DNA of 64,000 nt from Hydrogenovibrio crunogenus. Its GTDB lineage: Bacteria; Pseudomonadota; Gammaproteobacteria; Thiomicrospirales; Thiomicrospiraceae. The stretch is taken from assembly GCF_004786015.1 (NCBI RefSeq), contig NZ_CP032096.1, positions 1,798,001 to 1,862,000 on the forward strand, in the 5' to 3' direction. Position numbers and translations under genes: made by a program. The notes below the pieces were generated by a model. It worked only from the letters and a program-made list of their open reading frames with translations, did no database searches and had not been told where the DNA came from. Shown here in pieces: positions 3,809-63,200 of this stretch (position 1 is the stretch's first letter; every line of letters begins with the position of its first letter).

Positions 3809-4684
3809 ATGCAAGACCATATTCAACGCTTCCTTTTTAAAGACCTGAATATTCGAGGACAGCACCTCCAAATTGACCAGGCCTGGCAAAAAATGATTTC
3901 AGAACGTCATTACACGCCTGAACTGACCAAGGTGCTTGGTGAATTGACTGCTATCGCGATTATGTTGGCGAATGGCATGAAACATCTAGGCAAAGTCTCA
4001 ATCCAAGTCCAGGGAAGCGGTCCGGTTAATCTGCTATTAGTAGAGGCGACTCATGATTTGAAGATTCGGGGTGTGGCAAAAACCAACGCCGCATTGACAA
4101 CCCAATCCTCTTTGGATGAGTTGTTGGGGGATGGACAAATCTTGGTGACAATGGAAAACACGCAAACGCAAAGCTTTTTCCAGTCTTATGTGCCGCGCGA
4201 AGAAAACAATATAGCCAAAGCATTTGAAACGTTTTTGAGCCAATCAGACCAACAGCCGTCCAAATTATGGCTCGCTGCCAATGACACAGGCGTGGGTGGC
4301 GTTCTGATTCAAAAAATGCCGACTACAGATGATCATGATGAAGATGGCTGGGAGCGTATCCATTTACTCACGGATACTGTCACCGATGAAGAACTCATTG
4401 AGCTTGAAGCAGAACCGTTACTGCACCGACTCTTTCATGAAGAAGTGATTGAACTTTACACACCAGAGGAAGTGAATTACGACTGTCCGCAGGACAAATC
4501 CAAAGTGGATGATATGATCTTATCTTTAGGCGAAGCTGAAGCACGCAAAATCTTAGAAGAACAAGGGGAAATCGTGATTCACAATGAAATTTGTAATTTT
4601 CATTTACGCTACACTAAAGAAGATATTGATCAACTTTTTAACGAGGCCTCTTCTGAGGCTGACTCCAGCCAGACTTTACAGTAA
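3809..4684 (+). CDS. hslO: Hsp33-family redox chaperone with an incomplete zinc switch
   Basis: Hsp33 is a cytosolic holdase switched on by oxidative unfolding. The 291-residue protein matches the family along its length, from MQDHIQRFLF to the C-terminal switch region. The canonical CxC and CxxC zinc motifs are degraded: the first is NYDCP (Tyr224, Cys226) and the second is HNEICN (Asn259, Cys262). Only one cysteine of each pair remains, so tetrahedral Cys4 zinc binding is not possible from this chain alone. The rest of the linker, ILSLGEAEARKILEEQGEI, is well conserved, so the protein does not look like a pseudogene. A strong hairpin terminator follows 26 bases after the stop. Confidence 0.92.
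   Translation: MQDHIQRFLFKDLNIRGQHLQIDQAWQKMISERHYTPELTKVLGELTAIAIMLANGMKHLGKVSIQVQGSGPVNLLLVEATHDLKIRGVAKTNAALTTQSSLDELLGDGQILVTMENTQTQSFFQSYVPREENNIAKAFETFLSQSDQQPSKLWLAANDTGVGGVLIQKMPTTDDHDEDGWERIHLLTDTVTDEELIELEAEPLLHRLFHEEVIELYTPEEVNYDCPQDKSKVDDMILSLGEAEARKILEEQGEIVIHNEICNFHLRYTKEDIDQLFNEASSEADSSQTLQ
3877..3886. repeat. Iterated palindrome CCAGGCCTGG, copy 1
   Basis: Exact copy inside hslO, read there as codons for Gln-Ala-Trp. Confidence 0.9.
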
Positions 4685-4710: not shown

Positions 4711-4735
4711 AAAACCGCCAGGCCTGGCGGTTTTT
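4711..4735. terminator. Bidirectional hairpin terminator between hslO and yaaA
   Basis: A perfect inverted repeat built on the core CCGCCAGGCCTGGCGG (4715-4730) is flanked by A-run and T-run sequence (AAAA before, TTTTT after). It sits between the convergent hslO and yaaA genes and can terminate transcription in both directions. The stem centre is a copy of the iterated palindrome CCAGGCCTGG. Confidence 0.9.
4718..4727. repeat. Iterated palindrome CCAGGCCTGG, copy 2
   Basis: Exact copy forming the centre of the hslO/yaaA terminator stem. Confidence 0.9.
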
Positions 4736-7962: not shown

Positions 7963-10338
7963 ATGTCAATTCGCACTCATTCATTTTTGCTACTTTTTTC
8001 TTGTCTCATCTTGTGGGGACCACTGTTTGCGAAGGCGGCGGCCAATGAAACACCTCTCTCGCCACTTGCCACATCTAATCAAACCAAGCCGGAGTGTTTA
8101 CCCAACTGGATTGCGCCCCCTCAACGCATTCCCGACAAAACTTCATTAAGTTCTTCACAATCCGATACCTTACAACAACCGAACGCTCTTACCTACAAGC
8201 TGACCGGAAATGTGGTGCTAAAACAGCCAGGCCTGGTGGTTTTATCCAATCATGTACGCCTAAACCGCCAAACACAAGAGGCGAATATATTCGGCCAAGT
8301 GCAACTTCACCGTAAGGACTTAATTGTCACAGGGCGCACCGCTCATATTGACCAACAAGCCAAAACAGCCCAGATCAAACACACTCAGTTTCAGTTTACC
8401 GCCAACCGCTCGCACGGCACAGCGAAGCAAGTCGACATCAACCAAACAACGCAACTGGCTCAACTGGACGATGCAACGTACACCACCTGCCCGATTGTTG
8501 AATACAGCTGGCAAGCACGTAATGGCAATATCGTCACCGATACCAAGTACGACTGGGAACTCGACTTTGATCGATTGGACATTGATAACAATCGTCGCCG
8601 AATTTACGGTTATAACACCTTTTTGTACTTCCAAACCATTCCGGTATTTTATACACCATACATCGATTTTCCTATGGATGATCGTGCCAGCGGTTTTTTA
8701 TTCCCGACCATTGGAAGTTACCGATCACTCACGCGTGAAACGGCTGAAAATTATGTTGCGATTCCCTATTATTTCAACTTAGCGCCTAACTATGATGACA
8801 CCTTAACTGTGCTCAAAATGCAAGACCGCGGCTGGGTGGTCGAAAATGAATTCCGCTATTTAAAACCCGGCCACAGCGCTGAACTGACCTTAACCGGATT
8901 GAATGACCAAGTCACTCAAAAAGAAGGATTGAGTTATATTGATGCCAGCGGACAACCGGCTTATGGCAAAAAAATTGATCAGCGCTGGCGCGGAAAACTT
9001 ATTGCCAACCAACAATGGGGTTCTGGGCTCTCAAGCAACCTGCTCTGGCATGAAGTGTCGGATAAATACTTTTATACTGATATTCCAGTGGAATCGGCTT
9101 TAGACACAGTGTCTTATACACCGCGTTATGCTAGCCTGAACTATGCCAAAGGTAATTTACAAGCGGGCGTCCAACTGTTGGATTACTTACGCTTGAGAGA
9201 AACGGCGCCTTACAACTATGAAAAACGACCCGAAGTGACGCTAAACTACTATCACCCGTTTCAATCAGGCTTTCTTGAAAACACCAGTGTGAACTTAGCG
9301 GCCGAATCCACCGAATTTCAAATTTCAACCACTGGACACACCAAGCCGGAGGCGCTAAGAACTGTATTAGCACCGTCAGCTCAATACAATCTCCTCAAAC
9401 CCTATGGCAGCTTGAAAGCCGAAATTGTCGCCAATAAAGTTAACTATTTCATGCAAGACAATGGGTTCAACAATACTGGAAGCCCAGAGCATAATATCAA
9501 TGTCCCTCAATACGCCTTAAAAGGCGGGCTTATCTTTGAAAGGGACTTTACGGTGGGCGACACAGCCATGGTTCAAACACTTGAACCGGAGCTGCAATAC
9601 TTGTATGTACCGTATCAAAAGCAATCTCAAATTCCTTTATTCGATACCGTCTATAAAAGTTTGGATTTCAGTAACCTATTCACTTACAATCGCTTTTCAG
9701 GAATGGATCGTATCGGCGATACCAACCAGGTTTCAGCGGCGTTATCCACACGTTTCTTAAAACAAGATGGTCGCCCAATAGCGGAAGCAGGGATTGGGCA
9801 AATCTTTTACTTAGCAGACCGAAAAGTGACCCTCAACGACACACCGACTCAAACAGAACTGGCGCAGAACACAGCCCATATGTCGGATTACTTTGTCAAA
9901 CTTGGCATGACAGTTGGCCCTTTTCAATTTGCCTCGACCAGTCAGTATTCTTATCACAATTATGAACTCACCAACGCCAACAATCGCTTAAAATACGATA
10001 TATCTCCTCGCTTTAAATTTTTAATGACCAATACGATCACCAATAATAACTTACCCGGTGAACAGGAAGACTTGGCGGCGGGACTGAACTGGCAAATCAA
10101 TGATAAATGGGCGCTTGGCAGTTACATCAATTATAACTTTACGCAGGAGCGTAAAACAGAAGTTCAAAATGCGTTACGCTATGACAGCTGTTGCTGGGCT
10201 TCAGAGCTGTCTGTTAAAGAAACACAACTCGATAATGGCCTGTATAATTACAGCATCCAATATTTAATCGAATTTAAAGGACTCAGTTCGGTCGGAACCC
10301 CGTTTAAAAAATATTTAAATAATAAGCTGAATTTTTAA
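7963..10338 (+). CDS. lptD: LPS-assembly outer-membrane protein LptD
   Basis: LptD forms with LptE the outer-membrane translocon that places LPS on the cell surface. The 791-residue protein starts with a signal peptide (hydrophobic residues about 8-20, cleavage near AKAAA). It then has a periplasmic OstA-type beta-jellyroll domain and a long C-terminal barrel rich in alternating aromatic residues. Cysteines are at 45, 176, 743 and 744. This is the N-terminal pair plus C-terminal CC arrangement needed for the inter-domain disulfides that activate E. coli LptD. It is followed by surA, whose product helps fold barrels, about 97 bases later. Confidence 0.96.
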   Translation: MSIRTHSFLLLFSCLILWGPLFAKAAANETPLSPLATSNQTKPECLPNWIAPPQRIPDKTSLSSSQSDTLQQPNALTYKLTGNVVLKQPGLVVLSNHVRLNRQTQEANIFGQVQLHRKDLIVTGRTAHIDQQAKTAQIKHTQFQFTANRSHGTAKQVDINQTTQLAQLDDATYTTCPIVEYSWQARNGNIVTDTKYDWELDFDRLDIDNNRRRIYGYNTFLYFQTIPVFYTPYIDFPMDDRASGFLFPTIGSYRSLTRETAENYVAIPYYFNLAPNYDDTLTVLKMQDRGWVVENEFRYLKPGHSAELTLTGLNDQVTQKEGLSYIDASGQPAYGKKIDQRWRGKLIANQQWGSGLSSNLLWHEVSDKYFYTDIPVESALDTVSYTPRYASLNYAKGNLQAGVQLLDYLRLRETAPYNYEKRPEVTLNYYHPFQSGFLENTSVNLAAESTEFQISTTGHTKPEALRTVLAPSAQYNLLKPYGSLKAEIVANKVNYFMQDNGFNNTGSPEHNINVPQYALKGGLIFERDFTVGDTAMVQTLEPELQYLYVPYQKQSQIPLFDTVYKSLDFSNLFTYNRFSGMDRIGDTNQVSAALSTRFLKQDGRPIAEAGIGQIFYLADRKVTLNDTPTQTELAQNTAHMSDYFVKLGMTVGPFQFASTSQYSYHNYELTNANNRLKYDISPRFKFLMTNTITNNNLPGEQEDLAAGLNWQINDKWALGSYINYNFTQERKTEVQNALRYDSCCWASELSVKETQLDNGLYNYSIQYLIEFKGLSSVGTPFKKYLNNKLNF
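8227..8236. repeat. Iterated palindrome CCAGGCCTGG, copy 3
   Basis: Exact copy inside lptD, read as codons for Pro-Gly-Leu. Confidence 0.9.
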
Positions 10339-15859: not shown

Positions 15860-18241
15860 TTAACGTAATTCTGCTTTTACTTGCTCTTTTGCTTTTACGA
15901 TTACTTGTTCGATTAACTGATCGACTTCTTCATCTTGTAAAGTACGATCCTGGTGTTGGATCTTAAGCGTCAACGCAATACTTTTCTGCGTCTCTTCAAT
16001 CCCTTCACCTTGATAGATATCAAAAATTTCAACCGCCTTTAAAATATCGGATTGAACGCTTTCAATCGCATCCAATAATTTTTGTACTGGCAGCGCTTCA
16101 TCCACAACAAATGCTAAATCTCGTTGCACCTCAGGAAATTTAGAAATCGGCTTGGCGGCAGGCACTTTGGTTTCCATGATTGTCGCTAAATCCATTTGGA
16201 ATAAAAAGACTTTTCCTGACACGCCGGTAGATTTAACCAGGCCTGGGTGAAGCTGCCCCATCAAACCAACCGTTTGGCCATTTAAAATTAAGGCCGCAGA
16301 CTGGCCAGGATGGAAAATGGCAAACTCGGCCGGTTCAAAACGCACTTTGTCTTGAACATGACTCATTGCCAACAAGGTTTCCACATCGCCTTTTAAGTCA
16401 TAAAAATCAACCGGACGATTTTCACCAGACCAGTTGGCAGGATTCAAGTCTCCTACTATTGCTCCGCCAATAACGGGAGTTTGTTGTGTTTTATCATGGT
16501 AGCGTGTAAACACCAAGCCTGATTCAAAAATACGAATTCGATTTTGTTGACGTTTCTGATTATAGGAAATCGTTTGTAACAACCCTGGGAACAAAGTGGT
16601 TCTCATGGCTTTCATGTCATCTGAAATCGGGTTCTGCAAACAAAGATACGGAATATCCGGCATCATGTTCTGCTGTAACTTCTCTTCCACAAAAGAGTAG
16701 GTCACAACTTCATGGAAACCTCGATTTACTAACGCTTTGCGAACTAAATATAATTCTTGTTCAGATTCAGGCAAAGTCGGCAAGCGCATTGGCGCCTGCA
16801 CTTCCGTTTCAGGTAAATTGTTATACCCAAATACTCGACCTACTTCCTCAATCAAATCCGCCTCAATTTCCATATCAAAACGATACGACGGTGCGGTTAA
16901 AGCCCAACCCGAAGCGTTTTTTTCCACTTTAAAGTGTAAGCGTTTAAAAATGGCTTCCACATCATTATCTGCAATCTCAACACCTAATAATTTTGCAATG
17001 CGCTCAGGGCGTAATTGAATGGCTTTTGGTTGATGGAGGTTCAAGTCATTGATGGCCGAAACCACATTTGAAACTTGTCCGCCGGCAATTTCAGTAAACA
17101 ATTGCAATGCACGCTCAAGCGCCTTTTCAGGCAAAAAGGCATCCACCCCTCTTTCAAATCGGTGTGACGAATCGGTATGTAGACCATATTGGCGCGCTTT
17201 CCCGATAATACTCAACGGAGCAAAGTGCGCACATTCGAAAAAGAGACGGGTTGTCGTATCTGAAACCGCTGAATGCAATCCGCCCATAATCCCTGCTAAG
17301 GCTACGGGTCCCTTTTCATCGGCAATGACCAATGTATCAGCCTTTAAAGCCAGCTCTTTTTCATCCAGTGTCATCAGTTTTTCGTCTGGATGTGCCATGC
17401 GAACCTGAATAGTGCCTTGAAGCTTGTCAGCATCAAAAGCATGCATCGGCTGCCCTAACTCAAGCATCACATAGTTGGTGATATCTACTGTCAGATTTTT
17501 CGGTGAAATACCTGCTCGTTCAATACGTTGCTTCATCCATAAAGGGGTTTTAGCGGTGGTATCGTAACCTTCTACCAAACATCCTAAATATTTAGGGCAG
17601 CCATGCGCATCAACGACCTCAATGGACTGAGAACAATCGCCTGACTTATCAACCGTTATATTTTCAAAAGGTTGTTTGAATGGCACATTACCAATCGCAG
17701 CGACATCTCTAGCCACGCCCGCAATGCTTAAGCAATCGGCGCGGTTTGGCGTCAAATCCACATCAATCACCTGATCATTTAAATCCAGGTATTCACGTAA
17801 ATCCATTCCAACAGGTGCATCATCCGGTAATACATGCAGACCATCTACGCCATCATCCGGTAACCCAAGTTCACTTGCGCCACACAGCATGCCGTTTGAA
17901 GGCACACCGCGTAACTTGGCTTTCTTAATCTTAAAATCCCCTGGTAAAACAGCACCAACGGTAGCACAACAAGCTTTCATTCCTGCGACAACGTTTTTAG
18001 CTCCGCAGACAATCTGAACAGGCTCATCTGCTCCGATATCGACTTGAGTGACATTCAATTTATCAGCATCGGGATGCTTTTCAACCGAAATAACTTTGGC
18101 CACCACCACATGTGTAAAGGCCGGAGCAACTGGCTCAATCCCATCGACTTCCAAGCCTGCTAAACTTAATTCTTCTGCTAGGGTATTGGTGTCCCATTCA
18201 GGGTTCACCCATTCTCTTAACCAACTTTCACTTACTTTCAT
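15860..18241 (-). CDS. pheT: Phenylalanyl-tRNA synthetase beta subunit
   Basis: PheT forms the alpha2-beta2 enzyme with PheS. The 793-residue protein shows the expected order. An N-terminal EMAP-like tRNA-binding domain ([24 protein letters not shown]) comes first, then the B3/4 editing domain ([18 protein letters not shown]). The B5 domain, the catalytic-like core ([13 protein letters not shown] lies in the B3/4 region) and a C-terminal ferredoxin-fold anticodon-binding domain ([17 protein letters not shown]) follow. It starts 24 bases after the pheS stop, and a copy of CCAGGCCTGG lies in that gap right beside its ribosome site. Confidence 0.97.
16237..16246. repeat. Iterated palindrome CCAGGCCTGG, copy 4
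   Basis: Exact copy inside pheT, read on the minus strand as codons for Pro-Gly-Leu. Confidence 0.9.
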
Positions 18242-18252: not shown

Positions 18253-18262
18253 CCAGGCCTGG
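18253..18262. repeat. Iterated palindrome CCAGGCCTGG, copy 5
   Basis: Exact copy in the 24-base pheS-pheT gap, overlapping the region where the pheT ribosome site (GGCGAGA) lies on the minus strand. Confidence 0.9.
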
Positions 18263-25864: not shown

Positions 25865-25888
25865 AAAATAACCAGGCCTGGTTATTTT
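25865..25888. terminator. Perfect hairpin with T-run at a position with no upstream gene
   Basis: A 24-base perfect palindrome centred on CCAGGCCTGG with AAAATAA/TTATTTT arms. It looks like a bidirectional terminator, yet both flanking genes point away from it. Confidence 0.6.
25872..25881. repeat. Iterated palindrome CCAGGCCTGG, copy 6
   Basis: Exact copy forming the centre of the orphan hairpin. Confidence 0.9.
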
Positions 25889-26837: not shown

Positions 26838-27116
26838 GTCATGCCGGACTTACCTCGGCATCTCTAACCCACAGTAATTGTCATTGTCATGCCGGACTTG
26901 ATCCGGCATCTCTAACCGACTATGCACACCTTAAAAGATTCCGGCCTGCGCCGGAATGACGTGTGGAGACCAGAATGACAAGGGGGCCGGAATGACGTGC
27001 AATGGGCGGGAATGACGTAGGCGCCGGTGACGTACCCCCTGTCATGCCGGACTTGATCCGACATCTCAAGCCAGCTTGCACAGCCAGAACGAGATTCCGG
27101 CATTCGCCGGAATGAC
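26838..27116. repeat. REP-like palindromic repeat array A
   Basis: Two palindrome types alternate. Type 1 runs GTCATGCCGGA...TCCGGCATCT (26838-26863, 26886-26911, 27041-27066). Type 2 runs ATTCCGGC...GCCGGAATGAC (26938-26960, 27094-27116). Type 1 then type 2, about 26 bases apart, forms a composite unit of about 75-80 bases whose ends are themselves inverted. Short remnants (GGCGGGAATGACGTAG) fill the spaces. The 373 bases between the pcm-like gene and the toxin gene hold nothing else. Confidence 0.9.
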
Positions 27117-27154
27117 GTATGTAGGCCGGAATGCCCTTCGTTATTTGTAATTGC

Positions 27155-27439
27155 TTAAGATTTTAAATCTCTATAAAAGTTCTCGTGGCTTCCAAGTGCT
27201 AATAACTCAAGAATTAACCGATCTTCCTCAAAGCTATAACCTAAAAGAGATTCCTGATTTGCCATCTTAAATTTATAAACCCTTAAATAAATCAAATCAC
27301 CCTTCTTTTGCTCACCAAGATTTGGGTTGTTCAATAATTTTTGAACAGCTTTATCCAAATCATCTTTCTGATTTTTATGTAGCTTTTTAACCTTTTTTTT
27401 AAAACCCGAGGACTGATATACTTCCTTAACCAAACTCAT
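27155..27439 (-). CDS. RelE/ParE-superfamily toxin
   Basis: The 94-residue protein from the ATG at 27439 is small and basic: SSGFKKKVKKLHKNQKDDLDKAV, then LGEQKKGDLIYLRVYKFKMANQESLLGYSF and a closing LILELLALGSHENFYRDLK. This is the layout of a RelE/ParE-fold toxin. The frame is open up to 27502, but ATG 27439 overlaps the antitoxin stop by 14 bases, the usual coupled arrangement. Whether it cuts mRNA or acts on gyrase cannot be told. Confidence 0.82.
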   Translation of the reverse strand: MSLVKEVYQSSGFKKKVKKLHKNQKDDLDKAVQKLLNNPNLGEQKKGDLIYLRVYKFKMANQESLLGYSFEEDRLILELLALGSHENFYRDLKS

Positions 27440-27647
27440 AAGGTTCAAGCTTCCCTGCTTCTTTTTCTGCTTTGGAAATAAGCGCTTGCCGAACAAACTC
27501 ATAGGAAAGCTCGGGGTTATCTTCCATCATTTCACCAATTTTCGCCCAATGCTCAATTTGCTTTGGTACTGAACGATTAAATGCTTTTGCCATAATGCCA
27601 GCCTTCTCAACCAAATCCTCATCAATTCTTATACTTGCTGTTGCCAT
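27426..27647 (-). CDS. ParD-like antitoxin
   Basis: The 73-residue protein starts MATASIRIDEDLVEKAGIMAKAFNRSVPKQIEHWAKIGEMMEDNPEL. This is a ribbon-helix-helix antitoxin of the ParD-like type (the PF11903 group by memory). GGAGG lies six bases before the ATG at 27647. It is the first gene of the pair and probably represses its own promoter. Confidence 0.83.
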   Translation of the reverse strand: MATASIRIDEDLVEKAGIMAKAFNRSVPKQIEHWAKIGEMMEDNPELSYEFVRQALISKAEKEAGKLEPYEFG

Positions 27648-27674
27648 ATCAAACCTCCGTAGCAATTTTATTCA

Positions 27675-27703
27675 ATTGTAGCAACTTACTACAGTATATT
27701 CAA
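27675..27703 (-). promoter_or_regulatory. Toxin-antitoxin promoter
   Basis: On the minus strand TTGAAT (27703-27698) and TACAAT (27680-27675) are separated by 17 bases, an almost consensus sigma-70 pair. TTGCTAC occurs twice across and after the -10, a possible antitoxin operator. Confidence 0.65.
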
Positions 27704-27750
27704 TCAACTTCTATACAACGCGTATGACTCGAATGTTGATGCCATATGAG

Positions 27751-27964
27751 ATTCCGGCCTGCGCCGGAATGACGTGCAATGGGCGGGAATGACGTAGACG
27801 CCAGTGACGTGCACCCATGTCATGCCGGACTTGATCCGGCATCTCTAACCGACTATGCACACCATAAGAGATTCCGGCATGCGCCGGAATGACGTGCAAT
27901 GGGCGGGAATGACGTAGGCGCCGGTGACGTACACCCATGTCATGCCGGGCTTGATCCGGCATCT
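27751..27964. repeat. REP-like palindromic repeat array B
   Basis: Type 2 palindromes lie at 27751-27773 and 27871-27893, type 1 at 27819-27844 and 27939-27964. The unit of type 2, spacer with GGCGGGAATGACGTAG, then type 1 is repeated almost perfectly with a period of 120 bases. It lies between the toxin-antitoxin promoter and the GIY-YIG gene. An apparent reading frame here is only repeat sequence. Confidence 0.9.
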
Positions 27965-28005
27965 CTATCTTCAACAACAACTTTATGCTGAACTTATGTC
28001 TGTAA

Positions 28006-28296
28006 CTAAATAATGTCATTCCATAAATCTTGCCAATTTGAATTGATTCCAGAAATCAAATCATCCTTCCATTCTCTACGCCAGTTTTTTAATTGCTTCT
28101 CTCGTGCGATAGCACTTACCATTTCTTGATGAATTTCAAAATAAACCAATTTATCAACGTTATACTTCTTAGTAAAACCTTCAATTAAATGATTTTTATG
28201 TTGGTAAACTCGTTGGGACAAATTCGAAGTGACGCCAACATATAAAACCTTATTTGATTGGTTTGTCAAAATATAAACAGCGGGCTGCTTCATCAA
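28006..28296 (-). CDS. GIY-YIG domain protein flanked by REP-like arrays
   Basis: The 96-residue protein is a stand-alone GIY-YIG domain: VYILTNQSNKVLYVGVTSNLSQRVYQHK supplies the two GIY/YIG strands and the catalytic arginine, LVYFEIHQEMVSAIAREKQLK includes the conserved glutamate, and NWRREWKDDLI closes the fold. Such UPF0213-type nucleases are widespread and their substrate is unknown. It is bracketed on both sides by arrays of the same palindromic repeats. Two ATGs start the frame (MM). Confidence 0.88.
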   Translation of the reverse strand: MMKQPAVYILTNQSNKVLYVGVTSNLSQRVYQHKNHLIEGFTKKYNVDKLVYFEIHQEMVSAIAREKQLKNWRREWKDDLISGINSNWQDLWNDII

Positions 28297-28331
28297 AAAA
28301 CCTCGCTAATCAAGCTTTTAAATTATAAAAG

Positions 28332-28600
28332 ATTCCGGCTTTCGCCGGAATGACGTGTAGAGATAGGAATGACGAATAGAAGCATAAGTGACGTATGTAC
28401 ATTAGAATAATAACCCCGTCATGCCCGACTTGATCCGGCATCTCTAACCGACTATGCACACCTTAAGAGATTCCGGCCTGCACCGGAATGACGTGTGGAG
28501 ACCAGAATGACCAGGGGCCGGAATGACATGTGGGAACAGGAATGGCATGCGTGAACGAGAATAACAAAATCCACGTCATGCCGGACTAGATCCCGCATCT
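28332..28600. repeat. REP-like palindromic repeat array C
   Basis: Type 2 palindromes lie at 28332-28354 and 28470-28492, type 1 at 28418-28443 and 28575-28600, the last one decayed. Together with arrays A and B this makes seven type 1 and six type 2 copies within 1.8 kb. The 331 bases between the GIY-YIG gene and ligE hold nothing else. Confidence 0.9.
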
Positions 28601-28627
28601 TTAACCAGCGTAAAACATTCGAGCTCA

Positions 28628-29488
28628 TCACAACTCCTGATCTAAGCGGACTCGCATAAAAACAGGAAAGCGTGGTTTTCCAGACCCCGTCAAACCATAG
28701 TACTTAAACGTAATCCATTGTCCGATTTTAGGAGGGTGCTTTCTTCCCTGCAAACTTAAACCAGAGCCAATCGACAATCGCATCTTGCCCTGCCAATCAC
28801 ACCGTAAAGCACCAACCAACCCGGTAATTTTACCTTTTCCCGGTTTATACCCCACCACCAGACATTCATCATCTTCATAAGCCTTCATTTTCAAAGCTTG
28901 ATCACTTCGCCCGGTTTCATACAATTGATTCGGCGCTCGCAACACCAGCCCTTCCGCCCCCATGGCAGTCAGCCGCTCAAATTCCGCTTTTAAATGTGCC
29001 TCACTTTTAATGCGTGTTTGCGGAATAATCTGCACATGCAACAACGGATGCTTTGCCAAATACGCTTTCAACACCGTCAAACGCTCCACTAAGCCGCCCG
29101 GTTGGTTTGGCACCTCAAAAATTTGATACGAAACAGCATGCCACCTATCATCCGGTTGTTGTTGCCGAACAATCGACACCACATTTTCAAAATCCTGTCG
29201 TTGGGTCCAAAGCTCACCATCCAATTCAAAGGGCGGCAAACCGGCTAAAAACCAATCCGGTGCATGAATTTTGTGACCGCCTCTTGAAATCAATACCTTA
29301 CCATTCCAGTTTGCGCGAACACCATCCAGTTTTTCACTCATCCACCAACCGATCACCGCTTGGTTTTCCTGATACGTTTCCAACAACAGCATTTTCGGCT
29401 TTTCTGCACCCGCCGATGTGGCAATGAAATTCAAGCCTACAAACGCAAAAAGGAGGCAAAGCCCCCTTTTACAATGACAAATTCGCAT
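28628..29488 (-). CDS. ligE: Secreted ATP-dependent DNA ligase, LigE type
   Basis: The 286-residue protein is a minimal ATP-dependent ligase. The nucleotidylated lysine motif is SEKLDGVRAN (K53), followed by FELDGELW, EGLVLR and LKMKAYEDDECLVVGY, then an OB domain ending GQWITFKYYGLTGSGKPRFP. It begins with a signal peptide (hydrophobic about 10-23, cleavage near TSAGA). LigE enzymes are periplasmic and are associated with natural competence in bacteria such as Neisseria and Haemophilus. Here it is five bases downstream of comEA. A terminator-like hairpin overlaps its signal-peptide codons (29447-29470). Confidence 0.9.
   Translation of the reverse strand: MRICHCKRGLCLLFAFVGLNFIATSAGAEKPKMLLLETYQENQAVIGWWMSEKLDGVRANWNGKVLISRGGHKIHAPDWFLAGLPPFELDGELWTQRQDFENVVSIVRQQQPDDRWHAVSYQIFEVPNQPGGLVERLTVLKAYLAKHPLLHVQIIPQTRIKSEAHLKAEFERLTAMGAEGLVLRAPNQLYETGRSDQALKMKAYEDDECLVVGYKPGKGKITGLVGALRCDWQGKMRLSIGSGLSLQGRKHPPKIGQWITFKYYGLTGSGKPRFPVFMRVRLDQEL
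29447..29470 (-). terminator. Terminator-like hairpin inside the start of ligE
   Basis: On the minus strand AAAAGGGGGC pairs with GCCTCCTTTT (one G-U pair) around a three-base loop and continues into TTTTT. It lies 24 bases after the comEA stop but within codons about 7-14 of ligE, so it could end most comEA transcripts and limit ligE expression. Confidence 0.65.
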
Positions 29489-29493
29489 ATGGA

Positions 29494-29757
29494 TTATTTT
29501 GGATCAGACAACAAAATGTCTTTTTTATTCTTGGCAATCGTCTTAGTGCCAATGCCTTTTACCTGGCCTAATGACTCAACCGTTTTAAAATCACCATGCG
29601 CTTTACGGTACGTCACAATGGCTTCCGCTTTCACTTGACCGACACCACTCAGTGAAGCCGCCATTTCTTCAGCTGACGCGTTATTCACATTCACCGGCGC
29701 CGCCAACACACTGACCGACAAAAACAAACCAAACATAAGTGCAACTAACTTAATCAT
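29494..29757 (-). CDS. comEA: ComEA-type periplasmic DNA-binding protein
   Basis: The 87-residue protein has a signal peptide (hydrophobic about 4-19, cleavage near VLA) and a tandem helix-hairpin-helix ComEA domain: VNVNNASAEEM, LSGVGQVKAEAIVTYRKAHGDF and LGQVKGIGTKTIAKNKKDI. ComEA binds incoming double-stranded DNA and ratchets it into the periplasm during transformation. In many gammaproteobacteria this short form is the functional competence protein. Co-location with ligE strengthens that reading. A 220-base non-coding leader precedes it. Confidence 0.9.
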   Translation of the reverse strand: MIKLVALMFGLFLSVSVLAAPVNVNNASAEEMAASLSGVGQVKAEAIVTYRKAHGDFKTVESLGQVKGIGTKTIAKNKKDILLSDPK

Positions 29758-31141: not shown

Positions 31142-31151
31142 CCAGGCCTGG
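31142..31151. repeat. Iterated palindrome CCAGGCCTGG, copy 7
   Basis: Exact copy in the 192-base gap between wzz and the next gene. The flanking bases are only partly complementary, so no strong hairpin is formed. Confidence 0.9.
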
Positions 31152-38337: not shown

Positions 38338-39457
38338 CTAAACACCATTCATTGAGAGCACTAATCACCTTTTCGCAATCATTAATAGGCATCACAGGAC
38401 TAATCGGCAAACTCAACACTTGATTGTGAATCGCTTCAGTTATCGGGTAGCTTTGGTTTGACCAGGCCTGGTAGGCTTTTTGGTGGTGTGGTGCAATGGG
38501 GTAGTGGATTAGGGTTTGGATGCCCTGCTCGGTTAAATAGGTTTGCAGTTTTTCGCGCTCGGTGGTGCGGATGACGAAAAGGTGCCAAACATGGCTTGCG
38601 CAATGTTTAATGTTTAATTTTGAATCTTGAATGGGTAAAGCGATTGATGGGTTATTTATTCCCTCACAATACATCGCCGCGATTTGTTGGCGACGTTTTG
38701 TTTCTTGGTCTAGGTGTTTTAGTTTGACGCGAAGCAACGCGGCTTGCATTTCGTCTAGGCGGCTGTTGACGCCTAGATAGAGGTTTTCGTATTTTTTGTG
38801 GCTGCCATAATTGCCAAGTGCGCGGATGGTTTGCGCTAATGCGTCATCGTTGGTTGTGACGGCTCCGGCATCGCCGAGTGCGCCAAGGTTTTTGCCGGGG
38901 TAAAAACTAAAGCCTGACGCATCGCCCCAGTTGCCGGCTTTTTTGCCGTCAATTTGTGCGCCATGGGCTTGGGCGGAATCTTCTAATACCAATAGGTTGT
39001 GTTTTTTGGCCATCGCCATGATTTCGGGCATGGGTGCAAGCTGGCCGTAGAGATGCACCGCTAAAATCGCTTTGGTATTGGCCGTAATGGCTTGTTCAAT
39101 TAAGCCTGGCGCTAGGTTGTAGGTATGCTCATCAGGTTCGACTAAAATCGGTTTTAGGCGGTTTTCTGTAATGGCGAGAATACTGGCAATATAAGTATTG
39201 GCGGGGACAATGACCTCATCGCCCTCTTTCAGTCTGCCGAGTTCTTTCCACGCACGTAGCACAAGAATTAAGGCATCCAGTCCATTAGCTACGCCAATGC
39301 AGTGTTTAGTTCCGCAATAGTCTGCAAACTCATGTTCAAAGGCTTTAACATGTGTCCCTTGAACATACCAACCAGAATCGATAACTTGAGTCGCCGCTTC
39401 GATTAATTCGTTTCTATATTGGGCGTTAATGCCTTTTAAATCTAAAAATGGGATCAT
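38330..39457 (-). CDS. fdtB: dTDP-3-keto-6-deoxyhexose aminotransferase (FdtB type)
   Basis: This 375-residue DegT-family enzyme has the PLP lysine in [16 protein letters not shown] and the block [23 protein letters not shown]. It lies in the order rmlB-rmlA-fdtA-fdtC-fdtB, which makes dTDP-3-acetamido-3,6-dideoxy-D-galactose (Fuc3NAc). FdtB adds the amino group at C3. It overlaps the acetyltransferase gene by four bases. A copy of CCAGGCCTGG encodes Gln-Ala-Trp near its C-terminus. Confidence 0.85.
38462..38471. repeat. Iterated palindrome CCAGGCCTGG, copy 8
   Basis: Exact copy inside fdtB, read on the minus strand as Gln-Ala-Trp. Confidence 0.9.
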
Positions 39458-40417: not shown

Positions 40418-41286
40418 AACTTATGCTCCAACAAATCGGCTAAATATTGCCCATAGCTGTTTTTTGATAAAGCTTTCGCCGTTTGCATAACTTGTTCGTT
40501 GCTTAGCCAGCCATTACGCCAGGCTATTTCTTCTAGGCAGGCGATTTTGTAGCCTTGGCGTTTTTCGATGGTTTCGACAAACATGGCGGCTTCTAATAGA
40601 CTTTCGTGGGTGCCGGTGTCTAACCAAGCAAAACCACGTCCGAGTTGTTCAACGTGCAAATCACCTCGTTCCATGTACATTTGGTTGATGGTGGTGATTT
40701 CGAGTTCACCACGATTGCTGGGTTTGACTTGTTTGGCGATTTCTACTACATCATTGTCGTAGAAGTATAAGCCGGTGACCGCAAAGTTGGATTTGGGTTT
40801 GGCTGGTTTTTCTTCTAGGCTAATGGCTTTTTGGTTTTGGTCGAATTCTACCACACCAAAGCGTTCCGGATCTTTAACTTGGTATCCAAATACGGTTGCA
40901 CCACCAGGCCTGGTGGCTGCGCGTTTTAGGATTGGTGAAAAGCCTTGCCCCCAAAAGATATTGTCGCCTAAGGCTAAACACACGCTGTCGCTGCCTATAA
41001 ACTCTTCGCCGATAATAAACGCTTGGGCAAGTCCGTCTGGGCTGGGTTGTTCGGCGTAGGTTAGGTTTACTCCAAAGTCTTTACCGTCGCCCAGCATACG
41101 GATAAACCCGGCTTGATCTTCGGGCGTGGTGATAATCAGAATGTCTTGGATACCTGCCAGCATCAATACCGATAGCGGGTAATAAATCATCGGTTTGTCG
41201 TAAACGGGTAATAGCTGTTTTGATACACCGCGCGTAATCGGGTAAAGCCTTGTACCGGAGCCGCCTGCTAAGATAATGCCTTTCAT
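40414..41286 (-). CDS. rmlA: Glucose-1-phosphate thymidylyltransferase
   Basis: RmlA (RfbA) makes dTDP-glucose. The 290-residue protein has [48 protein letters not shown] and [21 protein letters not shown], standard for the family. It overlaps both rmlB and fdtA by four bases, so translation is coupled. It holds a 16-base extended palindrome around copy 9 of CCAGGCCTGG. Confidence 0.96.
40904..40913. repeat. Iterated palindrome CCAGGCCTGG, copy 9
   Basis: Exact copy inside rmlA, extended to CCACCAGGCCTGGTGG; read on the minus strand as Arg-Pro-Gly, a third reading frame for the motif. Confidence 0.9.
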
Positions 41287-42476
41287 TGTTTACTTCCTAA
41301 TCTTTCTCTTTGGTAACTGCCGTCTTGCACGTGTTGGCACCAGGCCTGGTTGTCGAGATACCATTGTACGGTTTTGCGTATACCCGACTCAAAGGTTTCT
41401 TGTGGTGTCCAGCCGAGTTCGCGTTGGATTTTGCTGGCGTCGATGGCGTAACGCATGTCGTGGCCTGGGCGGTCGGCGACGTATTTAATCAATGCCACAT
41501 AGCTACCCGCATTACCGGGCTGACACGAGTAGCTGTCGATATTGGGGTTATTTTCACTGGGATAGAATTCTTCTAACACCGCACAAATGGTTTTGACCAC
41601 TTCGATGTTTTGTTTTTCGTTATGGCCGCCGATGTTGTAGGTTTCACCTATTTTGCCCTTGGTTGCGACGAGCACTAAAGCGCGGGCGTGGTCTTCAATA
41701 TATAGCCAGTCTCGGATTTGGTTGCCTTTGCCATACACGGGGAGCGGTTTGCCTTCTAGTGCGTTAAGGATTACTAATGGAATGAGTTTTTCTGGGAAGT
41801 GATATGGGCCGTAGTTGTTTGAGCAATTGGTAACTAACGTTGGTAATCCGTAGGTTCTTTGCCAGGCTCGCACCAGATGGTCTGAACTCGCTTTTGATGC
41901 GCTATAGGGGGAACTTGGGGCGTAGGCGGTGGTTTCGGTGAAGAGAGGAAGCATAAGCTTGTCATTCTGAACCGCAGGTGAAGAATCTAGGTCGTGCGCT
42001 GAAGATCCTTCGCTTTGCTCAGGATGACTACTTAATACTTCATCCGGGTGTGGCAAATCACCATAAACTTCGTCAGTCGAAATATGGTGAAAGCGGAAAT
42101 TGGCTTTTTTATCGCCTTCAAGCCCTGACCAATAAGCTCTTGCTTGTTCGAGCAAGATATAGGTACCAACGATATTGGTTTGAATAAATTCACCAGGGCC
42201 GTCTATAGACCGATCAACGTGAGATTCCGCAGCCAAATGCATCACGATATCGGGCTGGTGTTGGTTAAACATGCGCTTGAGTTCAACCGCATCACAAATA
42301 TCGACCTGCTCAAAGACATAGCGTTCGCTGTTTTCGACAGATTTTAGCGATTCCAAATTACCGGCATAAGTGAGCTTATCAACATTCACCACCGAATAGT
42401 CTGTGTCGTTAATAATATGGCGAACTACTGCGCTACCAATAAAACCGGCACCACCGGTAACTAAAATACAAAACAT
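41283..42476 (-). CDS. rmlB: dTDP-glucose 4,6-dehydratase with an in-frame repeat insertion
   Basis: RmlB makes dTDP-4-keto-6-deoxyglucose. The 397-residue protein has the NAD loop [30 protein letters not shown], the catalytic [12 protein letters not shown] and [15 protein letters not shown]. It is about 36 residues longer than E. coli RfbB. The extra segment lies between PHPDEV and [10 protein letters not shown], reads [19 protein letters not shown] and following, and is encoded by a palindromic repeat (41961-42028). The frame and all catalytic residues are kept. A copy of CCAGGCCTGG lies near its 3' end. Confidence 0.94.
41340..41349. repeat. Iterated palindrome CCAGGCCTGG, copy 10
   Basis: Exact copy inside rmlB, read on the minus strand as Gln-Ala-Trp; only 427 bases from copy 9. 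Confidence 0.9.
41961..42028. repeat. Palindromic repeat inserted in rmlB
   Basis: The ends are inverted, GTCATTCTGA and TCAGGATGAC (one mismatch), with GAAGAATCT and AGATCCTTCGC inside. This is the look of a dispersed palindromic element. It adds about 25-28 codons in frame to rmlB. Confidence 0.8.
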
Positions 42477-42485: not shown

Positions 42486-43262
42486 TTACCTTTTTAAAAT
42501 ACTTAGCATGTGATCATAAAAGAAATGCAGTATCACTGAAAACAGCCAAATATGCGGCGAAACGAGTGAATAGTTTTTAGACAAGATTTTTGCTTTATCG
42601 TGAAAAATTTGACGCCTCGGACGCGACTTCATTGTATTTAACGCATGGGAACGGTAAAAAAACAAAGGCTCCTTTATCGCACTAAACTCGGTTTCAGCCG
42701 CTGCACGTATAACAAAATCCCAATCTTCTTCTTTTAACCTTTCATCAAAACCATTTAATTTATCAAACAATTTTCGAGAAAACATGATTGAGCCAGCAGG
42801 AACATGCTGGCGAACAAAAATCTTGTTCAAGACATTCCCCACCATCAGTTTTTTTGGAAATACGCGTAACTCACGCCCACTTTCAGAATCAAACTCGACC
42901 GCTTGTGTATAGCAAAATTCTGAAGTATCTAAAGTGGACAGACAAGCAACCTGCTTTTCAATTTTATTACTATCCCAATAATCATCTGAAGCCAAAACAG
43001 CAATGTACTCACCTGATGAAAACTCTTGAATTGCCCGATTTAACGTTTTACAAACGCCTTGATTTTCCTGAACAATAAATTTAAAACCATATTGATTAGC
43101 TAAGGCTTCAATAAGCTTTGGACTACCATCTTTAGAACCATCATCTATAACAATCAGTTCAATGTTTTTATATGACTGATTTAAAACACTTAAAATTGCT
43201 TTTTCAACATAATCCTCATGGTTATAACAAGGCATTACAACACTAACTTTTGGATTTGGCAT
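42486..43262 (-). CDS. Family 2 glycosyltransferase
   Basis: The 258-residue protein has a GT-A fold: VSVVMPCYNHEDYVEKAILSVLNQSYKNIELIVIDDGSKDGS and the metal-binding region VLASDDYWDSNKIEKQ. FDERLKEEDWDFVIRA is the likely acceptor/base segment. A short hydrophobic region is near the end. It adds one sugar to the O-unit; donor and linkage cannot be read. Two ATGs are possible, 43280 and 43262; GAGGG lies upstream of the latter. It overlaps the GT4 gene. Confidence 0.87.
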   Translation of the reverse strand: MPNPKVSVVMPCYNHEDYVEKAILSVLNQSYKNIELIVIDDGSKDGSPKLIEALANQYGFKFIVQENQGVCKTLNRAIQEFSSGEYIAVLASDDYWDSNKIEKQVACLSTLDTSEFCYTQAVEFDSESGRELRVFPKKLMVGNVLNKIFVRQHVPAGSIMFSRKLFDKLNGFDERLKEEDWDFVIRAAAETEFSAIKEPLFFYRSHALNTMKSRPRRQIFHDKAKILSKNYSLVSPHIWLFSVILHFFYDHMLSILKR

Positions 43263-44397
43263 CGGCAAAAAAACCCTCATAAAACTTTAATAAAACCTTT
43301 TCTTCTGAAGCCCAACTGTAATTAGCCAAAGCCGCCTCTCTACCAGCACGAGCATAACGCGAAGACAAATCAACATTTTCACAAATATCTCTAATAGCAA
43401 CCGCTATTTCCTTTACTGAAAGCGGATCAACCAACTTACCGCAACCAGCTTCGTTAACGATGGACTCCCAAAGTGGGAAGTTTGAAGCAACAACAGGCAA
43501 ACCCGCTGCCATATATTCAAAAAGTTTTATAGGCAACGCTTCAAACTGATTTGGACTGGGATGCAAAGTAACCATTCCGACATTAGAATCAGCTAAAGCT
43601 TGGCACACGCCTTCTCTGTCCACCATACCACGGTAATCTAACTGCGCCCATGCCGCATGGGCTCTAACATAATTTTCAGTTTCTTGGGCATCAAACACAC
43701 CGCACAAAATCAGCTTATAGTCTGCACCCAATACAACTAAGGCGTCCAACAACTCTTTAATGCCACGTTCGAAGTTAATAGAGCCAATATAACAAATTAC
43801 TTTGCTCGACTTTTTTTCGAATGGGATACCAATAAATTCGTCAAGAATGGGGTAGTTTTTCACACAAACCGTATTAGGGTTAAGTTTTTTAAATCGTTCT
43901 TCAATAAGTGGAGTTGCCGCTACAACACCACTGATTCTTTTCACAACAAAGTTTTCTAGCATTTCTGTGAAAAAAGAAAAAGGTTTTCGGATAAAAAGAG
44001 GAATCCAAGTTTTAAACAACAACTGACGAGGAAAATCTTCATGCGAGTCCCATACAACAACCCAACCTCTTTTCGAAAGCATATAAGCTAAAAACAAATT
44101 TTCAGGGTCATGAAAATGTGCCACCATAACAGAATTAGCACTCTGAACATTCGAATGTTTATTTGCAAAATCTAAAATAGATCGATAGTTTTGGACAACG
44201 CGCACAAGCCGGTTTCCTGGAGCCACACCGATATCAACAATTCGCGAATTATCGTCTGCATTAAAAACAGAACCCAAACCATCACTAACAACCAAAGAAC
44301 ACTCATACTGCTTGCTTAATGATTTAAACTCTTTTAAATAAACACGAACATCATGTCGTTTGTGAACAGTGGTGATATGGAAAATATTGTTATACAT
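43243..44397 (-). CDS. Family 4 glycosyltransferase
   Basis: This 384-residue GT-B enzyme has an N-terminal domain with FHDPENLFLAYMLSKRGWVVVWDSHEDFPRQ. The C-terminal nucleotide-binding domain has GSINFERGIKELLDAL, ADSNVGMVTLHPSPNQFEALPIKLFEYMAAGLPVVASNFPLW and the E-x7-E type motif within it. It would add another sugar to the lipid-linked O-unit. Donor specificity is not visible. It overlaps wzy by eight bases. Confidence 0.88.
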   Translation of the reverse strand: MYNNIFHITTVHKRHDVRVYLKEFKSLSKQYECSLVVSDGLGSVFNADDNSRIVDIGVAPGNRLVRVVQNYRSILDFANKHSNVQSANSVMVAHFHDPENLFLAYMLSKRGWVVVWDSHEDFPRQLLFKTWIPLFIRKPFSFFTEMLENFVVKRISGVVAATPLIEERFKKLNPNTVCVKNYPILDEFIGIPFEKKSSKVICYIGSINFERGIKELLDALVVLGADYKLILCGVFDAQETENYVRAHAAWAQLDYRGMVDREGVCQALADSNVGMVTLHPSPNQFEALPIKLFEYMAAGLPVVASNFPLWESIVNEAGCGKLVDPLSVKEIAVAIRDICENVDLSSRYARAGREAALANYSWASEEKVLLKFYEGFFADAKSKS

Positions 44398-45730: not shown

Positions 45731-45868
45731 AGATTCAACTCATAAGTGCAACATCTAACGCAATTAAAAACTTATTACCTATGCCCCCACTTTTAGTCGC
45801 ACTCTAATTTACAATTTTCCGACAGAGGGTATAATAAAAGCAATTACATCTAGTCACATATAAAACTA

Positions 45869-48309: not shown

Positions 48310-48416
48310 ATGCTTTCCAATATTCTTCCAAGTCAATGCAAAATGCTCGAGAACTCTCTATTTATCCGCAACTTCGCCAACTTAACGGTTGTGTGCAACG
48401 AGTTTTTTATTTGAAA

Positions 48417-50366: not shown

Positions 50367-50418
50367 TAACTCTATATCCAAAAAATAGAGTTGTTTTTAA
50401 GAAAATAAACAACTTTTT

Positions 50419-53045: not shown

Positions 53046-53066
53046 AAATATTTCCTTTAATTAAAC

Positions 53067-57493: not shown

Positions 57494-59104
57494 ATGTTTA
57501 AACAAATTGCATTAATTTTAGCCTTCTTTGCCGCTGCTTTGTTAGCCGGGTGCAGTACCACCCCAAAGCAATCAGACCGCTTAAAAGAAATCCAGCGCGG
57601 TTTTTTAGACGCACTGCCAAAAATGCCAAACCAATTGGATTATTTAGAAAACGCCATCCAAGAGGCTAAAAGCGACCAGGCCTGGGCAGAATACATTCAA
57701 TTAAGCCGAGAACTTTGGACAGAGGTGGATGATGCAAATCAGTTGGCTATTGAGTTTCAAGTCTGGTCAACGTTCAAAAACTTACCACAACCAACCCTGC
57801 AAAAACTTCAAACCTCTTCTGAGGGCAATGCCGATTTACAGAACTGGCTTCGTTTGGTCGAAGCAACCCAACAAAAACCCATTTTACAAAAACAAGCCTT
57901 ACGCGACTTACGGGAATTTTACCCAACAGCCTTATACTCTGAACATTTACTGCCTGAACTGCAAAACAAACTGAATCATCCCGCCACCGTCAAAAACATT
58001 GCAGTCTTACTGCCGTTCAGTGGCGAATATGCCAACATCAGTTTGCAAATTCGAAATGGTCTGTTGAAAAATCACTTCACCAACCAAACCAACCTCAAGA
58101 TTCGCTTTTATGACAGCAGCGACCTGACCGAACTCAAACAAACTTACTTAACCGCGATTCATCAAGGTGCCGAATGGGTCATTGGCCCTCTGCGTAAAGA
58201 AGCGATTGAAACCTTAGCCGAGTTAAAACCAGAAAACTTGCTGGCGTTGAATCAAATCAACGACCCGAATATTAAACAATTCAATTTTAAATCGGACTCT
58301 GAAGCGACTCAAATCACGCATAAACTGCAATATCACGACTTTAAACGGCTGGGCATTTTAACCAGCACCGCCTCGTCCGATACCAATTTGGCACAACATA
58401 TTCTGTATAACTGGATTCAAACGGAAGGCAACCATGCCGTGTTAAAAACCTACCCGACTCAGCGACCGAATTTACGCGCCGCATTAGGCAGTGTTATTAA
58501 TGAACCCGAAAGTGAAGCGCGTAAAAACAACCTGAGATGGCTCTTTAAAGAACAAATCCATTTCACACCGCGTCTTCGACAGGACTTGGATGCCATTTTG
58601 CTGATCGGCAGCACGGAACGTTTGGCGGTGTTTAAACCTCAGTTCAAGTTTTTTGATTTGAATTTGCCGACGTATGGCTCTTCCAAGCTAACGCCGGCGC
58701 AATTACAGCAAACACCACCCAATAAAGATTTAAGCCATCTTATTTTTCCGACCATGACGGCGGCGCTGACAAAAACGCCATTAAAAACCCCATTTGAAGC
58801 CTTTGGCTGGGACAGCTTAACACTGGTACTGAATCAGCAAAATCTCGCACCGGGACTTTGCCTTAACAAAGGCATGACAGGCAAACTTTCAATGCAGGAT
58901 AATCTAATCGACCATACCTTTACCTGGGCACAATATGACCGTTATGGGTACATTACTGAAGCGCCGCCTTATGTACCGCCAAAACCGATTGAAGAAGAAC
59001 AAGAGCCTGTTGAGCCTATCGAGCCAGTTATACCGATCAAACTTTTTGACCTGACGCAAACGGACACGAATACGAAAAATGCTTCTGAGGACATCACGGA
59101 ATAA
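57494..59104 (+). CDS. lpoA: Outer-membrane lipoprotein LpoA, activator of PBP1A
   Basis: From the ATG at 57494 the 536-residue protein has a lipoprotein signal, [20 protein letters not shown], with the lipid-modified Cys in LAGC. A helical TPR-like domain (about 20-170) follows. Then comes a periplasmic-binding-protein-like domain starting [24 protein letters not shown] and including [18 protein letters not shown] and [14 protein letters not shown]. The acidic proline-rich C-terminus (about 490-536) is extra. The gene order rsmI/lpoA-yraN matches E. coli. LpoA helps PBP1A make peptidoglycan. The ribosome site is poor (CAGGT too far). Confidence 0.92.
57676..57685. repeat. Iterated palindrome CCAGGCCTGG, copy 11
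   Basis: Exact copy inside lpoA, read as Gln-Ala-Trp. Confidence 0.9.
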
Positions 59105-60217: not shown

Positions 60218-63200
60218 TCAATTCAACTCAATCCATTCGTCTAAATAACTGAAATAAAGTACTCTCTTTTGAGGTCGATTCTCTATCGCCCCCAACAGCT
60301 GACCATATCGTTCAAGTTGCGGCGTGTAAACGTCTATTTGAGACTGTAAAAACGCTTTTTTATCCTGTTCGGGCTTGTCCAAATCAAACACACTGGTTTT
60401 ATAGTCAATAATCCAGCGCGTATTGTGCTCGTCCACGAATGTGCGATCAATAATATGATTGGACTGTCCGGTTTCTTCTTTGGCGCTCAAAGGTAATTCA
60501 ACAGCCGACTCGGCATGCTCTCGTGATAACGCCCAACGAACTTTGGGATTGTGTAGCGCATGGCTTAAAGACACCATGACGCGTTCCAATGCGGTCTTCA
60601 GTAACTCACGATTCAAGCCCATCTGCATCAACCCATAACGATACCGTTCTCGTTGTGATTCAAGCACGGTGGCATCCCAGCTTGAAAGATCCTGCTGCGC
60701 CCACTGTTCAAACACAGCATGCACAAAATTACCAACCGTTTTCGCCAAAACCCCACCGTGCAAAGAAGAAAGCGGCGTTGCAGACGGGGCCGTGACATCA
60801 ACCTCAAGCGATTCATCCGTGCCTTCATCCTCCACAACACCCATTCGAGCGGCTTTAACCAATTCGGATTCCTCTCTTTGCGTTTGCCAAAAGCCCTGTC
60901 TTTCCAGTGGCAGACGGCTGACTTTCGGTAACAATACCTGAGTATTCTCTTCCACGTCTTTGAATTGATACCCCATCAAACGTTCTTCAAAAGCCGAAGC
61001 CTCTAACGACCACAAACATTCCAACAAGCTTTTCTTCTTAGGCATCAACGCCGCGTCGCCATTAAAGGATTTTTCAGAAACCGCCACACTGCCGAACAAG
61101 TGCAGCTGCTGTTTGGCACGCGTGCAGGCCACATACAGCAAACGCGATAGCTCATAGCTTTGTTTGATTTCTTCATACCGCTTAATGACATTCGCCAGGC
61201 CTGGCTGTTTTTGCGCCGCTTTGCCCTTTTGCTCAAACGGTGCAATCACCAAATACGATTGTTCATGCTGTCCTTTGAAAGACAACCAAGACAACAATTG
61301 TTTTTCATCGGAACGAGGCGGACGTCCCAATCCCGGTAAAATCACGGTATCAAACTCCAACCCTTTCGACTTATGCATCGTCATCAGCTCGATTTTCTGG
61401 CTGGCTTCCGAGGCATCGGGCAAGGCATAGAGTGTCTCCAATGTATCCGACAATCCTTTCGCGGTTAACGCCGAGACATCCTGTTGCGCTTCCAAGCTAC
61501 CGAGCATCATCCAAAAGGCATCCACATTCTGCAAGGCCACTGCCGACTCAACCGTTTGTGGCCCGTCCAGCGCCAACCAAGTCTCATGCACCAGCACTTC
61601 CAAGGCGTAAGATCCTATTGCATTCAGCGCTTTTTCAAGCACAGGCAAACTCCGCCCCAATTGTTGACGCCCAGCCTCGGATACCTGTTGCCATCCGAGG
61701 TGGGTTTTATCCTGCAAGGTTTCCCAGACCGGCGTCTGAAAATAGTCGTCATTCTCACCCAATAAACGGTATAAATCCGTTAACGATAACCCAACGAGCG
61801 GTGAACGTAATAACGCGATCCACGCAGGTCGATCACCTAAATGCAACAATGATCGGGTCAAGGCTTCACAATCCTGAATTTCCTGCCGATCCTTCAGGCC
61901 TTCCAGCTCAACCGCACGAAAAGCGATGCCCGCTTGTTTCAGCTGAGTCGCCACGCCCATTAAGTGCGAACGGCTTCGACCCAATACTCCAATTGCGGCA
62001 TCCGCTTTCAAGGTCGATAACCGTTCTTGAATCAACGTTAAAATATCAGCTGCCTCGTCCCACGCCGACTGTTGCAAAGCCCAATGAGTATACACCGCAG
62101 GTGAATCTTCTTCAGAAAATGCCACCGCAGGGGCGTAGCTTACCGCGCCTTGTTCAATCAAACTCTTTTTAGGAAACACCTTAGCAAAGGTTTGATTCAC
62201 CCAGTCGACTACGCCTTTTGAAGAACGAAAGTTCACTTCCAGACTCAAAGGGGTTAAAGGCACGTCCCCCAACCGTCCTTTCCAAGCTTGCAAAAAGTTA
62301 CCCACTTCCGCTTCCCGGAAACGGTAAATGGACTGCATCGGGTCGCCGACAATAAACAAACTGTGCGCATCGTCCAATGACCAACCCGCCACGATTTTTT
62401 TCACTAAATCGTATTGCGCGACACTGGTGTCTTGAAATTCATCAATTAAGAGATGCTTTAAGGTGTAGTCCAACTGTTGGGCCAAATCAGTCGGTTCCAG
62501 CTCATTCCCCAACGCTTGGGAAGCGGCTTGCGCGACCTCAATAAAATCGGTCTCGCCTTCTGTTTGAAAACACAGTTTCAAATGCGCAACGGTGCGGCGT
62601 AACAGTTGAATCAAATGTCGAAGGTTTTGCCATTGCTCATCCGTGTAATGACCTTCCGGCAGTTGGCTTAATAACACCAGTGCTTCCGCATAGTGTCCTC
62701 GGATATCCGCCACATTCAGTTCCGCCAATAACGCTAAAAAAGCGTCTTTTTGTTCTTTGTTTTCCCCTTTACCGGCTGGAAACCCTTTCTTGACCGTGAC
62801 CGTTTTTAAAAATTTTCCTTGAGTCGAAAGAATCCAGTCCCCCAGCGTTTTCCAGGCCGCTAAACCGGATTCCTTCGTTAAAGGGTCATCCACCAACGGT
62901 TTCAGTTGAGGCTGGTCATTTTGCATGGCAAATGCGGCAAATTCCGCTATCTGTTGCAACAAAGACATCACCGGATAAAGCGTGTCAATGGCTTGTGTTT
63001 TTTCCTGCGAGACCAACAAAGCCAAAGCCTTTTCCAACTCAGCGCGTTCTTGTGCCTCTGCATCCTGGCCATACGACAATAGCGCGCCCATCCATTGATC
63101 ACGTTTTTTCAGCATCGTCACCAATAGATTTTCGGCACTGCGATAATTACCATTGACCAATCGCAATAAACTGGCAGACGCTTCCGTCGTATCACCATCT

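Follow-up and report, generated by a model that had tools for sequence, protein, structure and literature searches.

Sequence evidence for a comEA-ligE gene pair and a palindromic motif as a candidate DNA-uptake system in Hydrogenovibrio crunogenus

The window, which is the whole stretch of 64,000 nucleotides of H. crunogenus DNA analysed here, carries two neighbouring genes on the minus strand (Table 1). The comEA gene is located upstream of ligE, and the gap between them has 5 bp (29489-29493). ComEA obtains 87 bits with the TIGR00426 profile (cut-off 53.1) and 67.9 bits with HHH_3. Its N-terminus presents a hydrophobic leader with its end at VLA/AP. Likewise, LigE starts with a basic and then hydrophobic leader, with its end at SAGA/EK. 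Both leaders were called by eye, without a signal-peptide predictor.

LigE obtains 353 bits with the NCBIfam equivalog NF006592 (cut-off 200). It consists of the adenylation and OB domains, with no extra domain, and conserves the KxDG active site. This site reads KLDGVR, and its lysine (K53) is invariant across 20 homologues. The closest PDB relatives are 8u6x, 4d05, and 6gdr (E 2e-61 to 1e-51). We take these three to be Lig E structures, partly on the basis of paper titles. The profile and domain matches identify the ligE product as a Lig E-type ligase, with ATP-dependent nick sealing as its predicted activity. The first-pass annotation had claimed a signal peptide and a HhH domain for ComEA. 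For the ligase, it claimed a signal peptide, the KLDGVR site, and a minimal LigE-like length, and it placed the genes five bases apart. These descriptions agree with our results. By sequence, both proteins are ordinary members of their families, and only the tight comEA-ligE pairing is notable in this family.

Other elements are located near the pair. A cluster of REP-like repeats (CGTCATTCCGGC...GCCGGAATGACG) occupies window 26900-28620, just downstream of ligE, and contains a small ORF with a GIY-YIG domain (28006-28296). Overlapping genes for a ParD-like antitoxin and a ParE-like toxin are present at window 27155-27665 on the minus strand.

Table 1. Genes of the pair and exact copies of the palindrome, in window coordinates.
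Feature	Position	Strand	Remarks
comEA	29494..29757	-	Predicted secreted helix-hairpin-helix DNA receptor, 87 aa; TIGR00426, HHH_3
ligE	28628..29488	-	Predicted secreted minimal ATP-dependent DNA ligase, 286 aa; NF006592, DNA_ligase_OB_2, DNA_ligase_A_M, PDB relatives
CCAGGCCTGG	3877..3886	.	In gene; kept at orthologous place in G002 and G005
CCAGGCCTGG	4718..4727	.	Between convergent genes; A/T tracts on both sides, terminator form
CCAGGCCTGG	8227..8236	.	Kept at orthologous place in G002
CCAGGCCTGG	16237..16246	.	In gene; G002 orthologue differs by point changes, no gap
CCAGGCCTGG	18253..18262	.	At gene end; one base different in G002 orthologue
CCAGGCCTGG	25872..25881	.	Intergenic
CCAGGCCTGG	31142..31151	.	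Intergenic
CCAGGCCTGG	38462..38471	.	In gene
CCAGGCCTGG	40904..40913	.	In gene
CCAGGCCTGG	41340..41349	.	In gene
CCAGGCCTGG	57676..57685	.	In gene
CCAGGCCTGG	61195..61204	.	In gene; one-sided T tract

The window contains the palindrome CCAGGCCTGG in 12 exact copies. Allowing one mismatch raises the count to 16, against a mean of 1.0 in shuffled sequences. The genome of H. crunogenus (one contig of 2,453,259 bp) has 367 copies where about 2 are expected, and the reversed control word has 0. Copy counts refer to whole genomes. The placement statistics come from sampled stretches, 385 kb of the H. crunogenus genome, which contain 57 copies (0.3 expected). Elsewhere in the class, across 21 other families, the word reaches at most 35 copies, with 10 copies of the control in that case. 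The first-pass annotation had mentioned an over-represented palindrome, without its letters, and proposed a preferred DNA motif. Our results back this proposal far more strongly than that annotation could have known.

The words inside the 10-mer behave differently from the 10-mer itself. Outside it, AGGCCT is at expectation (61 vs 65 expected overall), CCAGG has no enrichment, and GGCC is depleted. It means that the whole CCAGGCCTGG unit is what is enriched. We considered whether the 10-mer represents two abutting CCWGG sites of the Dcm/EcoRII type, and we rejected this idea because CCAGG itself is not enriched.

These counts also bear on a comparison with HIP1 of cyanobacteria. The palindrome could have arisen as a by-product of methylation together with mismatch repair, or it could be a target kept for a DNA methyltransferase. 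Both are GC-rich palindromes, highly iterated, with hundreds of copies and species- or lineage-specific replacements (PMC4390886), and H. crunogenus has two C5-methyltransferases. However, the methyltransferase-driven HIP model requires a cognate enzyme (PMC4390886), and a search for C5-methyltransferases gave no match in 21 of the 32 palindrome-rich genomes. We found no general methyltransferase link. The T-tract flank and an asymmetric dialect, described below, also differ from HIP1. We rejected the methylation explanation because C5-methyltransferases are absent from most motif-rich genomes and the inner sequence is not enriched, and we give it little chance of being correct.

The position of the copies is mixed, with 29 of the 57 sites in coding DNA. 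The coding fractions are approximate, since genes were called by a simple ORF rule. The flanks differ between both classes. A T tract on both sides is present in 17% of coding sites vs 82% of non-coding sites. On the other hand, 66% of coding sites have at least four T in five positions on one side, compared with 8% of random coding positions (binomial P about 1e-14). Between convergent genes we find 17 of the 27 counted intergenic sites, in spaces that represent 16% of intergenic DNA. One of these sites folds as a stem-loop of -18.7 kcal/mol, and double-flanked sites between convergent genes can fold as bidirectional terminators.

The non-coding half, the convergent spaces, and the fold are what we would expect if the palindrome were merely a standard bidirectional intrinsic terminator at gene ends (A tract, stem, GGCC loop, stem, T tract). 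The coding half, with its mostly one-sided T tract, is not. Moreover, in G023, 96% of the sites are in coding DNA and have no T tract. The asymmetric dialect of G004 and H. marinus would need two inverted copies to form a stem, and most of its copies are single. The terminator as sole explanation is very unlikely, and we rejected it because of the sites that lie in genes and have their T tract on one side.

We compared the window with the orthologous region of G002. Some sites are kept, and others differ by point changes within coding sequence that otherwise aligns, without insertion. The alignment indicates that sites arise in place by point change and not by insertion. An inserted mobile repeat was rejected, because orthologous in-gene sites align gap-free. 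The one-off variants of CCAGGCCTGG are over-represented chiefly at its outer base pairs.

Two islands are motif-free. The first is a polysaccharide-type gene cluster (window 42486-54299) that is not aligned to G002. The second, about C1:415-429 kb (L134, C1:412001-430000), contains transposase-like ORFs and the two C5-methyltransferases. Together they have 0 sites vs 3.9 expected, a weakly significant difference (P about 0.02). The lack of sites as a depletion of foreign DNA is suggestive only.

The motif changes across the family. In sampled stretches, the CCAGGCCTGG dialect is also present in Hydrogenovibrio G002 and Thiomicrorhabdus G034, and G023 shows [GC]CAGGCCTG[GC]. G032 has ACCGGCCGGT, with 1025 copies genome-wide and at most 15 in any other genome of the family. 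The asymmetric CCCARCCTGGYAGATTTT dialect occurs in one Hydrogenovibrio clade. G004 has it as CCCAGCCTGGYAGATTTT, and H. marinus (G011) and G001 have it as CCCAACCTGGYAGATTTT. Its 14-base pattern has 296-352 copies in these three genomes and 0-1 elsewhere. With its T tract it is a word of 17-18 bp. Some of its sites form inverted pairs 21-32 bp apart. The palindromic and asymmetric motifs have in common GCCTGG and then a T tract. More than 200 copies of CAGGCCTG are present in 32 of the 63 family genomes, and about 36 of 63 carry a motif when other dialects are included. Of the motif-free genomes we sampled two, G062 and G063, and neither presents a comparable word. The Thiomicrorhabdus genome G019 (L092-L101) presents only long gene repeats, and long internally repeated sequence dominates its word spectrum.

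In the LigE tree, which is a single-gene tree, the asymmetric dialect forms one 100/100 clade inside the palindrome-bearing Hydrogenovibrio. This suggests one change of specificity. The dialects are consistent with phylogeny as far as this LigE tree represents it.

As a third explanation, the motif could be bound by a protein that organises or segregates the chromosome or acts in recombination (a site of the Noc, SlmA, KOPS, or Chi type). The high number of copies and their even spread round the chromosome speak for it. Nevertheless, the sampled stretches show no regional exclusion, and the motif is lost or replaced among close relatives. The asymmetric dialect is in mixed orientation, and for this reason we rejected a polar replication motif such as Chi or KOPS. 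The copies are also several-fold more numerous than known sites of the SlmA or Noc kind. Both the terminator-only and the chromosome-organisation models fail on the sites within genes, on the one-sided T tracts, and on the change of dialects, and we regard the latter model as very unlikely.

The comEA gene adjoins ligE in most sampled genomes of Hydrogenovibrio and Thiomicrorhabdus. Sequence comparison equates genus g3 with Thiomicrorhabdus, and g6 is probably Thiomicrospira, by inference. G026 and the T. chilensis record L151 have identical comEA sequences, and named Thiomicrorhabdus records carry the pair too. In G005 and G006, comEA is ~1 kb from ligE. In g6 and in G014, no comEA was seen up to 1.5 kb from ligE. 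In Thiomicrorhabdus sp. zzn3, two genes of the PilT/PilU family are located ~5 kb from the pair (L163:14311-16633), and four further records have PilT/PilU-type tblastn matches of the same kind.

The ligE gene is not always preserved. It is broken in G001 and G007 and interrupted in G011, three Hydrogenovibrio that retain comEA and a motif. The damage is a frameshift or a split of ~1.2 kb (L020, L021, L011, L031). In three motif-rich g6 genomes (G016, G023, and G033), ligE was not found. The motif has a high copy number in all six. So, LigE is an optional partner that is not needed for keeping the motif, and we rejected a dependence of the motif on LigE. Nothing in evidence ties LigE to the motif mechanistically. 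The first-pass annotation had described a two-gene competence unit. The adjacency is kept in Hydrogenovibrio and Thiomicrorhabdus, and this part stands. The unit as such calls for caution, since ligE is broken or was not found in several motif-rich relatives.

These losses also leave room for a LigE unrelated to uptake, which acts on extracellular biofilm DNA and whose comEA neighbourhood is inherited without functional meaning. In Neisseria gonorrhoeae, deletion of ligE has an effect on biofilm formation, and whether LigE takes part in transformation is not yet settled (PMC10799422). The adjacency maintained across Hydrogenovibrio and Thiomicrorhabdus species argues against it. We consider this explanation rather doubtful, while giving it real weight. 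Previous work on Neisseria already proposed that LigE seals nicks in incoming DNA (PMC10799422). The place of LigE beside comEA fits such nick sealing in incoming periplasmic DNA.

The first-pass annotation suggested looking for the type IV pilus, comEC, and dprA genes. All are present in the genome of H. crunogenus, in addition to PilT. The comEC gene is an intact ORF of 842 aa. The pilus is of the MSHA type, with an MshL secretin and a minor-pilin cluster. Pilin genes are located at C1:527-533 kb. Besides the pilus, the genome has a system for type II secretion and a Tad-like locus. Thus, comEA, comEC, dprA, PilT, and a type IV pilus co-occur with the motif in one genome. The minor-pilin cluster includes a pilin-like protein of 458 aa with Gly/Asp-rich repeats in its C-terminal half (L127:5277-6653, about C1:529277-530653). 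As a candidate for the receptor locus, this cluster was rejected: it is also present in the motif-free G062, so it does not discriminate. ComP_DUS gave no match above the cut-off in the 63 family genomes, and the search for a GspH/FimT receptor gave no homologue.

We propose that comEA-ligE is a conserved gene pair for DNA uptake in natural transformation and that H. crunogenus has CCAGGCCTGG, flanked by a T tract on one side, as its uptake sequence. We put the probability of this reading at roughly three in four. It builds on what we observed, namely the genes and, for the motif, how often it occurs, where it lies, what flanks it, which dialects it has, and how its sites turn over. From these we infer a competent cell, an enhancement of uptake by the motif, the working of the receptor, and the role of LigE. 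A retractile type IV pilus would pull double-stranded DNA across the outer membrane. A surface receptor, probably a pilin, would bind CCAGGCCTGG with its one-sided T tract and would thereby favour DNA from its own kind. ComEA would hold the incoming DNA in the periplasm, where LigE, as an optional accessory, could seal nicks. ComEC would move one strand inward, and DprA would pass it to recombination. Over evolutionary time, recombination of the preferred fragments would enrich the motif, and changes in the receptor would yield new dialects.

Some results count against this uptake reading. These are the lack of a ComP_DUS or GspH/FimT match, the sites of G023 without a T tract and almost all in genes, the broken or not found ligE of several motif-rich genomes, and the weak significance of the motif-free islands. 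The density of sites, 0.15-0.5 per kb, also counts against it, since USS and DUS are cited at roughly one per kb (PMC1626085).

To our knowledge, only Pasteurellaceae and Neisseriaceae have established uptake sequences. Whether these evolve by receptor bias or by selection for recognising the own kind is still argued. A paper of 2020 describes uptake sequences in the two families (PMC7811141). As in the USS of Pasteurellaceae, the motif has an exact short core in at least hundreds of copies, an AT-rich tract on the 3' side of this core, sites that are not insertions, and subclade dialects (PMC1626085). Unlike the USS, its core is unrelated in sequence, palindromic in most species, of lower density, and from another family. 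As in the DUS of Neisseriaceae, dialects track phylogeny with a shared inner core, and there are in-gene sites and inverted pairs at terminators (PMC3630211). In contrast, the DUS is non-palindromic and has no T tract, and ComP_DUS has no match here. In both comparisons our side consists of sequence data.

For no member of the family did we find published data on uptake or transformation. Among the open-access papers covered, none mentions 'uptake sequence' alongside Thiomicrospira or Hydrogenovibrio. The search covered open-access literature, so the novelty is provisional. For the 10-mer, no paper on bacterial DNA uptake was among the matches listed.

We think it likely that Hydrogenovibrio, Thiomicrorhabdus, and g6, which are free-living chemolithoautotrophs, constitute a third clade with uptake sequences. 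The palindrome of most species would have been remodelled to an asymmetric core with a T tract in the H. marinus lineage, which implies a receptor unrelated to ComP. If true, this clade, in which dialects are palindromic or asymmetric and close relatives have gained or lost the motif, would be an independent replicate of uptake-sequence evolution. It would also offer a comparative route to the receptor. Likewise, these vent bacteria would be predicted to be naturally transformable, with the preferred donor DNA already named.
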